Source of the DNA: Streptomyces sp. NBC_01241
GTDB lineage: Bacteria; Actinomycetota; Actinomycetes; Streptomycetales; Streptomycetaceae
Length of the DNA stretch: 64,000 nt
Assembly: GCF_041435435.1 (NCBI RefSeq)
Contig: NZ_CP108494.1
Coordinates: 4,498,501-4,562,500 of the forward strand
Direction of reading: 5' to 3'
Below the pieces are notes generated by a model. The model worked only from the letters and a program-made list of their open reading frames with translations, searched no databases and was not told the origin of the DNA. Both the position numbers and the translations under genes were made by a program. Below, piece after piece: positions 44,911 through 47,715 of this stretch. Positions within the stretch are counted from its first letter, which is position 1. Every line of letters starts with the position of its first letter.

Positions 44911-44929
44911 CGAGTCCCACACGGCCTAC
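44911..44929 (+). repeat. Third, partial tRNA-Lys attachment core
   Basis: The 19 bases CGAGTCCCACACGGCCTAC match the right part of the 46-bp core exactly. Sequence to the right resembles the sequence right of the first core (integrase tail). Confidence 0.75.
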
Positions 44930-44932
44930 CGA

Positions 44933-45035
44933 TCACAGGTCGAGGAGGAATCCTCTGACCTGCGGCTTAGCGCCTCGGGTGGCTTCGGCCGACCGAGGCG
45001 CTTCGCCGTACCCGGCCTCTTGCGTGAGCGGATGG
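44933..45035 (-). pseudogene. Integrase C-terminal tail remnant
   Basis: The reverse strand encodes LTQEAGYGEAPRSAEATRGAK, colinear with the tail of the first integrase (LTQEAGNDEAPRPDEADRGAK, 26762-26835), and it occupies the same position next to a core. The rest of that integrase is missing. This marks the left end of a third, mostly deleted element. Confidence 0.7.
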
Positions 45036-45084
45036 TTCCGCAGCAGGTGCTGTGGACGCCCCGCCGCCCTCCCCGTCTGGGTGG

Positions 45085-45339
45085 CGTGTGCTCGGCGAGG
45101 ATGTCGCGGCCGGCCTCGCTCTTGTGGATCTCGTCGACGCTGCCGAACCGGGCCTCGGAGTAGTCGAGTTCCAGGAAGGCGGCGGCCTGCCGTACCGACG
45201 TCTCGTCGGGACCCTCGATCTCCAGGAACGCGGGGAGGTCGGGCCGGGTGTCGAAGTTGAAGGCGACCTCGCCCAGGCGTCGCCCCTCGCGGTAGTTCTC
45301 CTGGTAGCGGACCTCGGTGAGGCAGGGGGGATCGTCCAA
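45085..45339 (-). pseudogene. CYTH-domain (class IV adenylate cyclase-like) fragment
   Basis: Reads RYQENYREGRRLGEVAFNFD, then PAFLEIEGPDETSVRQAAAF and FGSVDEIHKSEAGRDIL, the C-terminal half of a CyaB/CYTH domain. The N-terminal half with the ExExK motif is absent, and the frame then runs into the integrase tail remnant. It is a deletion fusion, not a working gene. Confidence 0.75.
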
Positions 45340-45384: not shown

Positions 45385-45801
45385 TTACAGCCCGCAGGAG
45401 CCGCGGTCGAGGTGGAAGTATCGGGCGTTGGCCCAGCGGCACAGCCGGATACCGACGATGACTCCGACGATTGTGACCAGGGCGGGCAGGTATCCGCTGG
45501 CGACCTGGATGATCGGGATTGCAGGGCACCCACCTGAGATCGCCCAGCCCGTACCGAACAGCACCGCGCCGGGGATCACGCCCCTGTGGATACGCCCTGG
45601 CGTGCGGCGGACCCGCAGCAGAGCGAACGCGCACACGATGATCACCACGGCGCCGGCGAAGGAGAGGAGCATGCGCAGGTCCTGGAAGGTGAACATGTGG
45701 TTCAGCTCGGCGTAGTCGCCGAAGCCGATGTTGGTGACGGTATAACCGAGGGCCAGTCCGGTGATGATGTTGGCCAGCAGAATCGCGCCCCGGGTACGCA
45801 T
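45385..45801 (-). CDS. YeeE/YedE-type sulfur transport protein, second half (DUF6691-like)
   Basis: A 138-residue membrane protein with four hydrophobic helices. GTGWAISGGCPAIPIIQVAS contains the conserved Cys of YeeE/YedE proteins, which move thiosulfate or related sulfur species by cysteine relay. Its ATG overlaps the upstream stop by one base, so it is translationally coupled to the larger YeeE/YedE half. In split systems both halves are needed. Confidence 0.87.
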   Translation of the reverse strand: MRTRGAILLANIITGLALGYTVTNIGFGDYAELNHMFTFQDLRMLLSFAGAVVIIVCAFALLRVRRTPGRIHRGVIPGAVLFGTGWAISGGCPAIPIIQVASGYLPALVTIVGVIVGIRLCRWANARYFHLDRGSCGL

Positions 45802-46451
45802 CAGATCACCTTCCACAGGAGGAACGACACCAGGATGGCGGTGCCGAAGAACACGGCGGTCGCGACGATGCTGACCGGGCGTAGACGGCCGCAGCCGTTG
45901 AGACCGTGGCCGGAGCTGCACCCACCGGCCAGCCGAGTGCCAAAGCCGACCAGCACGCCTCCCACGAACAGCAGGGCGATCATGGTGGTCGGATTGGCGG
46001 TGACCAGGTTCCGGAAACCCGGGCCCATGTCGTAGCGGAGGTGGAACCGCCCGGAGGTGACCGCGGCGATCAATCCGCCGAGGAAGATCGATATCAGCAG
46101 GGCAGCCTGGGTGGCCAGTGGGGCCGGGCGCAGGCTCGTGGCCGCGGGGCTCTCGCTCACCGCTGGTTCGGTATCCGCTTCGAGTGGCTGTGAATTCCCG
46201 TGCGGAACCTGCGGCAGGGCGGACGCGCCGGTGCCGAAGTGCTCCGCCGTAGCTGCGGCGAGCGCCTCAACGAGAGCTTGATCGTCGGCGAACTCCTCGT
46301 CCATCTCCTCGAGGTGGCGTTCGCGGCGCCAGTGCAACACGCGATCCCACGCGGACGACACCCCGAAAGACCGATCGGTGATGAGGGTGTAGTTGATGGT
46401 GACCAGAGCGAGCCCGATAGCGCCCGCCCACCAGGGCCAGTAGGTACTCAT
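45801..46451 (-). CDS. YeeE/YedE-type sulfur transport protein, first half
   Basis: A 216-residue membrane protein. One N-terminal helix (YWPWWAGAIGLALVTINYTL) is followed by a cytosolic charged linker (about residues 35-95) and then three or more helices with GTRLAGGCSSGHGLNGCG, the Cys-containing core motif of the YeeE/YedE family. ATG at 46451 has GAGAGG 6 bases upstream. It overlaps the preceding Cys-containing gene (ATGA) and the following half, forming a tight three-gene operon. Confidence 0.88.
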   Translation of the reverse strand: MSTYWPWWAGAIGLALVTINYTLITDRSFGVSSAWDRVLHWRRERHLEEMDEEFADDQALVEALAAATAEHFGTGASALPQVPHGNSQPLEADTEPAVSESPAATSLRPAPLATQAALLISIFLGGLIAAVTSGRFHLRYDMGPGFRNLVTANPTTMIALLFVGGVLVGFGTRLAGGCSSGHGLNGCGRLRPVSIVATAVFFGTAILVSFLLWKVI

Positions 46452-46978
46452 GCGGGTCCTCTCATCCAATCGGCGAATCGAGCCAACCAGCCGCGCTTCG
46501 AGCTGGGGGCTTGCCGCGCTCGTCGAGCGAGGCTGGTTGAAGGTTCGGGAATTTGTGGGGGCGGTGACGGTTGGTGATGCCAGGCAGGTGCTGGCGGAGA
46601 TGTCGCCCCGAAGTGTGCCGTGGCCCCCGGTGTCACGGTTCCGGTTTCTGACTGCTCATATGGGTGGGGCGGCGCTGGCTGGGACCAGGGCGCGGCCTCC
46701 GGTGACCACGGATCGGACTGTGGTGGCGGGGCCTGCCGGGGTACCTCCCCTGGGTTGGCGGCGCCGGACCGGTCCGCCTCGGCGACGTCTTCGAGGTGTC
46801 GCGCGCGGGCTCCGTTGGGCAGCAAGCTGATTGGCACGCGCTCGCCGGTGAGTGACACCTGGTAGCGCGCACAGTCGAGCCACCGATCGTCGCTGTCGCA
46901 GTAATATTCGCGCCAACCTCGCAAGCTCGCCCTAAGTAGGGGGAAAAGGGGGCATCCTGCGGCGTGTGAGCAACTCAC
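46448..46978 (-). CDS. Cys-containing hypothetical protein coupled to the YeeE/YedE operon
   Basis: A 176-residue protein starting at GTG with GGAGGG 6 bases upstream. The N-terminal ~70 residues carry four cysteines (CSHAAGCPLFPLL, then WREYYCDSDDRWLDCARYQ) and look like a small folded domain, perhaps metal- or cluster-binding. The middle is Pro/Gln-rich and disordered. The C-terminus ends RGWLARFADWMRGPA, an amphipathic tail also found in the divergent Cys-rich protein at 47422. It overlaps the transporter start by 4 bases. No function is known to me; a sulfur- or redox-linked role is inferred from position. Confidence 0.75.
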   Translation of the reverse strand: MSCSHAAGCPLFPLLRASLRGWREYYCDSDDRWLDCARYQVSLTGERVPISLLPNGARARHLEDVAEADRSGAANPGEVPRQAPPPQSDPWSPEAAPWSQPAPPHPYEQSETGTVTPGATAHFGATSPPAPAWHHQPSPPPQIPEPSTSLARRARQAPSSKRGWLARFADWMRGPA

Positions 46979-47421
46979 GTTGCTCCCTCCTGATCGGCGC
47001 ACACCACTCCGTTCGGGGAGAGCGGTTGCCGTTCTCGATTCTTGCCCTCGCCGCGCTCGGTCGACGATCTGCAAAGCAACGCGGTGACGGGCCGTGACAA
47101 TGAGGCTCTGTGCCTCCATTCCGCGACCGGGCGTGATGCAATCACTGTTTCGATGTCCCGAGCAAATTCAGGGTATTTTTCAATCGGGCGACTTGACACT
47201 ACGTGGTGAGATATTCCGCGCAACGGACATGTGGCTTCTGTCCCTCTTGTCTGGATACTTACAACCGGCAATTAGGTCACTTGGATCACTATTCGACCCC
47301 ATGGCCGCAGTCCGTACTGATGCAAGTCAGCTGTTTGCGGAGAGGGTGAAAATACTGGAGCCCCTTGTGATGGTGGCGTGGATATCGTGGATCTCAAATG
47401 AAGAGCTAATGGAGAAGAATT
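46979..47421. other. Divergent promoter region, AT-richer than surroundings
   Basis: A 443-bp gap between the YeeE operon and the small Cys-rich gene. It includes TTGACA near 47192 and several AT-rich blocks. A forward open frame (47094-47468) lacks coding base use and is not called. Confidence 0.45.
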
Positions 47422-47715
47422 ATGTGCCAGCGTGCTGTCTGTCGGTCGTGCCGGAAGATGACCTATGAGGGCTGCGGGAGGCATGTGGACCAAGTCCTCA
47501 TGGGTGTGCCGACGGCTCAGCGGTGCATCTGTGAGTCTGCGGAGCGCAGGGGGGCGCGCGCAGTGGAGGCGGCGACTCGATCGGAATCGGTGCCGGCTCG
47601 ACAGGGCGAGTCGCTGCGACACGCAGAGGTCCCTCGGCGCCCGGAGAGTTCACCAAGCCGGTCGAGGGGTGGCTGGTGGGCCCGGCTCATCAATTGGGCG
47701 AAAAGCCCGGCATGA
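47422..47715 (+). CDS. Small Cys-rich (zinc-ribbon-like) protein
   Basis: A 97-residue protein. The N-terminal MCQRAVCRSCRKMTYEGCGR and QRCICES give six or seven cysteines in CxxC-like spacing with a conserved His (GRHVDQV), typical of a widespread small actinobacterial family of unknown role. A basic disordered linker leads to RGGWWARLINWAKSPA, an amphipathic tail resembling that of the protein encoded divergently at 46448-46978. GGAGAAG precedes the ATG. Confidence 0.8.
   Translation: MCQRAVCRSCRKMTYEGCGRHVDQVLMGVPTAQRCICESAERRGARAVEAATRSESVPARQGESLRHAEVPRRPESSPSRSRGGWWARLINWAKSPA

Follow-up and report, generated by a model that had tools for sequence, protein, structure and literature searches.

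A split YeeE-type transporter and two small Cys-rich proteins with a shared C-terminal tail in Streptomyces

The closest described systems are three. PmpA and PmpB are reported as a split YeeE/YedE transporter encoded by separate short genes (PMC11582611). In TsuA/TsuB (YeeE/YeeD) thiosulfate uptake, as summarized in PMC11073785, a membrane transporter and a small soluble Cys protein are encoded in one operon. In Streptomyces coelicolor, a four-gene circuit comprises CsoR, a persulfide dioxygenase, a rhodanese and a TauE-type sulfite transporter; the outline of the circuit given in PMC7533328 describes no gene like that of protein B introduced below, and reports that sulfane sulfur increases the production of actinorhodin and accelerates sporulation.

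The window analysed here is a stretch of 64,000 nucleotides from Streptomyces sp. NBC_01241 (NZ_CP108494.1, positions 4,498,501 to 4,562,500), and coordinates are those of the window unless a locus handle precedes them. A first-pass annotation made from the letters alone knew of no published system like the one it noticed in this window, and no description was found in the open-access PMC literature.

Gene order and the transporter halves

Four genes, with their overlaps, stand as they had been annotated at the first pass, three on the minus strand and the fourth divergent:

45385..45801, minus strand: PmpB-like transporter half, 138 aa, matching the N-terminal half of PF04143
45801..46451, minus strand: PmpA-like transporter half, 216 aa, matching the C-terminal half of PF04143
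46448..46978, minus strand: protein A, 176 aa, GTG start, with an N-terminal four-Cys domain, a long Pro-rich linker and a C-terminal tail
46979..47421, no strand: A-B intergenic region, 443 bp, with conserved blocks
47422..47715, plus strand: protein B, 97 aa, with a Cys/His domain, a variable linker and a C-terminal tail

The A stop and the PmpA-like start overlap in ATGA, and the junction of the two transporter genes reads TGATG. With starts set by alignment, these overlaps are retained in 55/58 (A/PmpA-like) and 57/58 (PmpA-like/PmpB-like) loci. The better start for A is the GTG at 46978, preceded by GGAGGGAG, which gives a protein of 176 aa; a similar purine-rich site is found in 10 of 12 relatives and is not clear in L065 and L066. 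Comparison of 30 sequences shows conserved blocks in the A-B intergenic region, most strongly directly upstream of A and around gaAACA.TGgTT.CATC. It has no Rfam match, no promoter or terminator was found between A and B, and a palindrome of the form TACCC-N4-GGGTA is absent from its 443 bp. Downstream of the operon, a minus-strand frame (44926-45339) presumably resembles part of a CYTH-type domain.

One transporter half matches PF04143 positions 225-309 and the other positions 11-100; since the C-terminal and N-terminal halves of the family are matched separately, we take the PmpA-like and PmpB-like proteins as the halves of a split YeeE. At E 0.001, PF04143 matches nothing else in the source genome. 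In a profile alignment to 6leo, Cys178 of the PmpA-like half aligns with Cys293 of S. thermophila YeeE. In the PmpB-like half, GGC92P is unchanged over nine aligned rows and is placed at Cys91 by the Pfam half only; a profile search of the PDB with this protein gave no YeeE match. Its second cysteine, Cys136 (45394-45396), near the C-terminus, is also invariant in the nine aligned relatives. PmpA and PmpB are expected to have about 130 aa and four membrane helices each; hydropathy gives four segments in the 138 aa of the PmpB-like half, and three in the 216 aa of the PmpA-like half plus a helix at 7-25 in a weak AlphaFold model (mean pLDDT 52.8).

Two features had gone unnoticed at the first pass: the persulfide context of B relatives, treated below, and an extra loop in the PmpA-like half with a tail-like motif:

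46122..46361, minus strand: extra loop within the PmpA-like half (residues 31-110), conserved over 31-72 and variable beyond
46329..46349, minus strand: WDRVLHW motif at the start of the loop, resembling the core of the tails

From the GxSx motif after helix 1 to the Cys293-type cysteine, A-linked PmpA-like halves span 134-195 residues, mostly 150, whereas ordinary actinobacterial PmpA halves span 39-99, mostly 66-85 (24 of 25 measured, L192 not being measurable, and the lowest distances coming from a mis-picked motif). The extra loop amounts to about 65-80 residues and was not seen in ordinary halves; short stretches around the 25 ordinary halves contain no A or B domain. The loop opens with AW(D/E)RVxHWR (I for V in one row), and column identity is 0.82 in its conserved, probably helical part and 0.46 in the variable stretch; two helices are predicted in the loop at low confidence. 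WxR-hydrophobic-xxW occurs in 58/58 A-linked PmpA-like halves, 0/58 PmpB-like halves and 0/24 ordinary halves. The background is five occurrences in 785,821 residues of open frames at the loci, or 0.0014 per 216 residues, a rough figure because many of these frames are not genes; the 58 halves are all one family and therefore count as one evolutionary event. At the level of sequence, three proteins of the module (A, B and the PmpA-like half) have this core motif in common. The loop motif is not notably amphipathic, its hydrophobic moment being reached by 34% of shuffles. As to the side of the loop, arginines follow helix 1, yet residues 1-115 of the PmpA-like half are acidic overall, and we assume a cytosolic placing.

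Distribution of the module and of the shared tail

The A domain was scanned for in 84,980 species genomes with two short peptide patterns, which detect rather close relatives. The scan gave 63 A loci, 53 titled Streptomyces and 10 from Saccharopolyspora, Pseudonocardia, actinobacterial MAGs and one acidimicrobial MAG; A is intact at 61 and cut by contig ends at two. A PmpA-like gene adjoins A at 61/63 loci and a PmpB-like gene at 58/63, all misses being contig ends, while B is found at 31/63 and is undecayed and tailed at 29. The module, a split transporter plus one or two tailed Cys-rich proteins, is found in Streptomyces and some relatives; S. viridochromogenes DSM 40736 (L078) is one species with all four genes.

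Among 246 Streptomyces genomes, 16 matched A, of which three (G062, G091, G200) were dropped (28-40% identity, lacking A's conserved start); all 13 that hold A have PmpA-like and PmpB-like genes adjacent. A tailed B lies at the locus in 10 of the 13, nine divergent and one (G141) downstream on the same strand, and there is no B at the A locus in G003, G125 and G235. The B search matched 17 of the 246 genomes. The two sets share genomes (for example L084 and G191) and are not independent. Co-occurrence, which had been proposed as the check on the first-pass annotation, is borne out: A adjoins the transporter wherever the contig continues, and, a weak match in G080 left aside, intact tailed B was found in the 246 genomes only at A loci. 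An orphan, frame-broken B with a pmp-type tail (L067:6257-6747) lies in genome G237, in which the A search found nothing; it looks like the relic of a lost locus.

On the operon tree (59 rows), the distribution of tailed B needs at least seven changes, three of them forced by well-supported branches; B thus comes and goes, and A keeps its tail. No other neighbour is shared by the A loci, the large clusters by position overlapping the four genes. The largest non-overlapping cluster is a protein-kinase-like frame (L079:1575-3317), a few kb from A at 13/63 loci.

The tails are:

46451..46492, minus strand: A tail GWLARFADWMRGPA, residues 163-176, with the ribosome-binding site and the overlapping start of the next gene lying within its last codons
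47671..47712, plus strand: B tail GWWARLINWAKSPA, residues 84-97

The pattern GW(L/W)AR(F/L)xxWxxxPA is, as first noticed, common to the ends of A and B, the rest of the two proteins being unlike domains. The strict tail is present in 58/61 intact A proteins (L096 and L123 deviate by one or two residues, and in L139 the second Trp is missing), and a recognisable one in 60/61. B tails at the 31 loci comprise 28 strict, one near match (L100) and two decayed (L112 and L121). W(-6) is found in 60/61 intact A and 29/29 undecayed B, a residue also used to sort B, and R(-10) in 59/61 and 27/29. Mean column identity is 0.83 in the domain, 0.42 in the linker and 0.76 in the tail for A (46 rows), and 0.85, 0.45 and 0.79 for B (27 rows). 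Domain and tail are conserved and the linker is not, which places function in the domain and the tail.

In the source genome (8.98 Mb) the tail pattern occurs at two sites, A and B, and the reversed-pattern control at none. Across the 246 Streptomyces genomes, 20 have between them 31 sites of a wider pattern, and the reversed control gave 26 (hand count). Of the 31, 19 are A or B genes at pmp loci, one is the orphan broken B of G237, nine end in TGG, and the two others are a noise frame and the end of a protein in which a NUDIX-like motif was noted by eye. The nine are false ends, because the stop code TRR also admits TGG, which is no stop. The raw count is therefore not above control, but of the 22 sites that end in a true stop, 20 belong to A or B genes, which makes the tail specific. 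This search for other bearers, suggested at the first pass, indicates that the tail in this exact form is not common at Streptomyces C-termini. A general Streptomyces C-terminus is accordingly rejected for the exact form; B relatives often have another short tail.

The same figures bear on whether the likeness of the tails is chance, or an artefact of the overlap fixing A's last codons. The MRGPA codons of A do hold the ribosome-binding site and the ATGA of the next gene, and the raw sites do not exceed the reversed control (31 against 26). However, GWWARF..W lies outside the overlap constraint, B has no overlapping gene, and both tails are conserved across dozens of species; with the true-stop sites, this conservation leads us to reject an origin by chance or codon overlap, which we consider highly improbable. 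Nor do the codons suggest that tail DNA was copied recently: where the two tails have the same residue, 52% of codons are identical within genomes versus 48% between them.

The tails are amphipathic, with hydrophobic moments of 0.63-0.73 reached by 2-8% of shuffles, and residues 160-172 of A are predicted as a helix (pLDDT about 70) within an otherwise unusable AlphaFold model. Such moments would suit a mere amphipathic anchor in the inner leaflet that has no specific receptor, the sharing then reflecting a common need or a copied tail. B relatives away from A loci point the same way in that a different short tail, for example GFLSRLFGR, is frequent at their ends; a strict pattern for it is present in 22/51 versus 0.3% of shuffled ends; many of the remaining ends are aromatic and basic by eye. 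W(-6) and R(-10) are, however, stricter than a lipid anchor needs, and tail type follows the locus, the A-type tail being found in 0/51 B relatives elsewhere. The main reason to favour a protein receptor over a lipid anchor is that B tails end in PA free of overlap constraint: PA ends 22/28 strict B tails (Pro in 26, Ala in 24), and no gene overlaps the end of B. We regard the anchor as possible, ranking it close behind docking to a protein.

Tails might also bind one another, in A-B or A-A pairs, to form a heteromer or homomer that does not dock to the transporter. Within-genome identity of A and B tails is 0.599 versus 0.576 when permuted (29 pairs), a value reached by 0.15% of permutations, although plain phylogeny may account for the excess. 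A keeps its tail at many loci that lack B, so that the tail must serve A alone too and A-B pairing cannot be its main use. Pairing is for us improbable, and less likely than the anchor. Docking of both tails to one partner, as the first-pass annotation had suggested, is a reasonable but conjectural interpretation of these sequences.

The Cys-rich domains and the relatives of B

The domain of A is defined as follows:

46790..46978, minus strand: A domain, residues 1-63, with C3, H5, C9-P-L-F, Y26-C27, C36-A-R-Y and VP..LLPNG

In an alignment of 46 rows, these motif columns are invariant or nearly so. Protein A has no Pfam or NCBIfam family match up to E 1, its domain matched no solved structure, and its AlphaFold model is poor (mean pLDDT 46.8). 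Membership of YeeD (TusA-like) was considered and rejected: A has CPLF in place of the CPxP motif, with C9, P10 and F12 invariant in the 46 rows. No TusA/SirA-like domain was found in A among Pfam or NCBIfam matches up to E 1, and the model is too poor for a fold comparison. Plasmids were searched for copies of A and none was found.

A profile search with the A domain matched 8/396 genomes of the phylum, the source genome included. Distant relatives are small stand-alone proteins or a C-terminal extension of uracil-DNA glycosylases. Two such fusions carry a C-terminal A-type four-Cys domain, L150:1398-2216 (family 4 uracil-DNA glycosylase by NCBIfam) and L149:717-1451 (uracil-DNA glycosylase by Pfam only). 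The pattern C-x5-CP ... YC-x8-C is retained in six of seven other A-domain matches, the seventh being partial. Because distant relatives retain it, two of them fused to uracil-DNA glycosylases, the four Cys of A may be structural, and the pattern suggests a structural metal or Fe-S site.

The Cys/His domain of B comprises C2, C7, C10, C18, H21, C35 and C37. Protein B has no Pfam or NCBIfam family match, and comparison of its domain with solved structures gave two chance-level matches (E 0.16 and 0.31). A B-domain profile matched 36/296 actinobacterial genomes, the source genome included; a tree of the domain has too few columns to resolve. Around 38 other B places, 37 neighbouring regions were taken, each spanning about 12 kb except for a few that contig ends shortened. 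As persulfide-type genes we counted CstR/CsoR, metallo-beta-lactamase-rhodanese (persulfide dioxygenase), rhodanese, TauE, DUF302 and CoA-disulfide-reductase-like genes, with bait profiles derived from plasmid loci, several of which cross-match via the rhodanese domain. At least one such gene lies in 18/37 regions, 16 of the 18 with CstR, and none in the other 19; displaced control regions, drawn from part of this genome set, contained none (0/19; Fisher p 1.4e-4, the genomes not being independent).

B also matched 40 plasmid records, of which six were examined. A CsoR-family regulator lies within 5 kb of the B relative on all six, and rhodanese, metallo-hydrolase or TauE genes are present on five. 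On the sixth, L248, DUF302 and copper-protein genes take their place, and a copper gene is present on L253 too, so that a metal-response reading is possible for some B relatives. At the B-family plasmid loci, no listed gene underlies the 20 matches listed, the plasmid gene table being incomplete.

Tailless B relatives are found elsewhere in six Streptomyces genomes (G003, G106, G110, G148, G191, G198). A dioxygenase or CstR gene lies near five of them (in L073 at 5.5-9 kb), and L072 has only DUF302. The gene order in L070 and L071 is dioxygenase, B relative, CsoR, with the genes of L070 confirmed by Pfam. This small Cys/His family in or beside CsoR/CstR operons (L070:9914-10066, L071:9963-10115, L249-L253) has no family name.

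The A loci differ in setting. None of the 63 has CstR, dioxygenase, rhodanese, TauE or DUF302 within up to 6 kb on each side, and over the same span one has a CoA-disulfide-reductase-like match. Palindromes like TACCC-N4-GGGTA, which we take to be the CstR operator, occur in 8/9 B-relative loci, which were scanned from end to end, and loose forms occur in 1/61 A upstream regions (L112) of up to 700 bp; the lengths scanned are thus unequal, being greater for the B relatives. By descent, though not by its present neighbours, the B of the window is a member of a family that often occurs in persulfide-response operons.

Proposed role and comparison with known systems

We propose that A and B are Cys-rich partners that reach the split sulfur transporter via their shared C-terminal helix, a reading which, taken whole, we see as evenly balanced between holding and failing. 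What is observed is the order of the genes, their conservation, a tail specific to A and B, the added loop, and a persulfide setting for many B relatives. A and B would be soluble, cytosolic, probably metal- or sulfur-binding proteins, and their flexible linker and amphipathic helix would bring them to the same site on the transporter, for which the added PmpA-like loop or the adjoining membrane surface is the likeliest candidate. Tethered at the inner mouth of PmpAB, they may take over the transported sulfane sulfur or thiosulfate, hand it on, or sense it. A would be the core partner, and B a recruit from the persulfide-response gene pool that carries an A-type tail. For helix docking, the cytosolic side of the loop, the substrate and the handling of sulfur, this is what we infer.

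Several results count against this proposal. The weakest point is the possible structural role of the Cys of A, which speaks against simple sulfur-carrier chemistry there. The poor AlphaFold models, the not notably amphipathic loop motif and the uncertain side of the loop weigh against docking; so do, for the proposal as a whole, the lack of CstR, dioxygenase, rhodanese, TauE and DUF302 genes within up to 6 kb of A and of a clear CstR palindrome at A loci, the 19/37 B regions elsewhere that show no persulfide-type gene, and the presence of undecayed B at 29/63 only. Thiosulfate uptake, to which the first-pass annotation had looked, gains no specific support, B relatives pointing to sulfane sulfur or persulfide and A lacking the CPxP of YeeD.

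More tentatively, the WxR-hydrophobic-xxW...PA helix might act as a portable docking tag, a plug whose socket is the added loop, itself with the same motif. Unrelated Cys proteins, one of them from a persulfide regulon, would acquire the tag and serve interchangeably to accept or sense sulfur at the exit of the pore. We think this version possible, though doubtful.

Conserved gene order and the tail in common tie two unnamed protein families to a split sulfur transporter, and one of them, B, is also tied to persulfide control. The case bears on how YeeE-type transporters hand over sulfur to the cell and on whether split PmpAB needs a partner.

Compared with CsoR/CstR-persulfide dioxygenase operons, the likeness is that many B relatives sit in such operons; the B of the window lies outside that setting (0/63 A loci have CstR or the dioxygenase within up to 6 kb) and its tail differs. 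Like TsuA/TsuB, the operon pairs a membrane transporter with a small soluble Cys protein, but A lacks CPxP and a Pfam match and has a linker and a helical tail, and the transporter is split. The likeness to PmpA/PmpB is in the transporter itself, where PF04143 is divided between two proteins, one half in each, and Cys178 is at the Cys293 position. It differs from PmpA/PmpB in that the PmpA-like half has 216 aa and not about 130, because of the extra loop, and in that it is accompanied by a constant neighbour, A, and an optional one, B.
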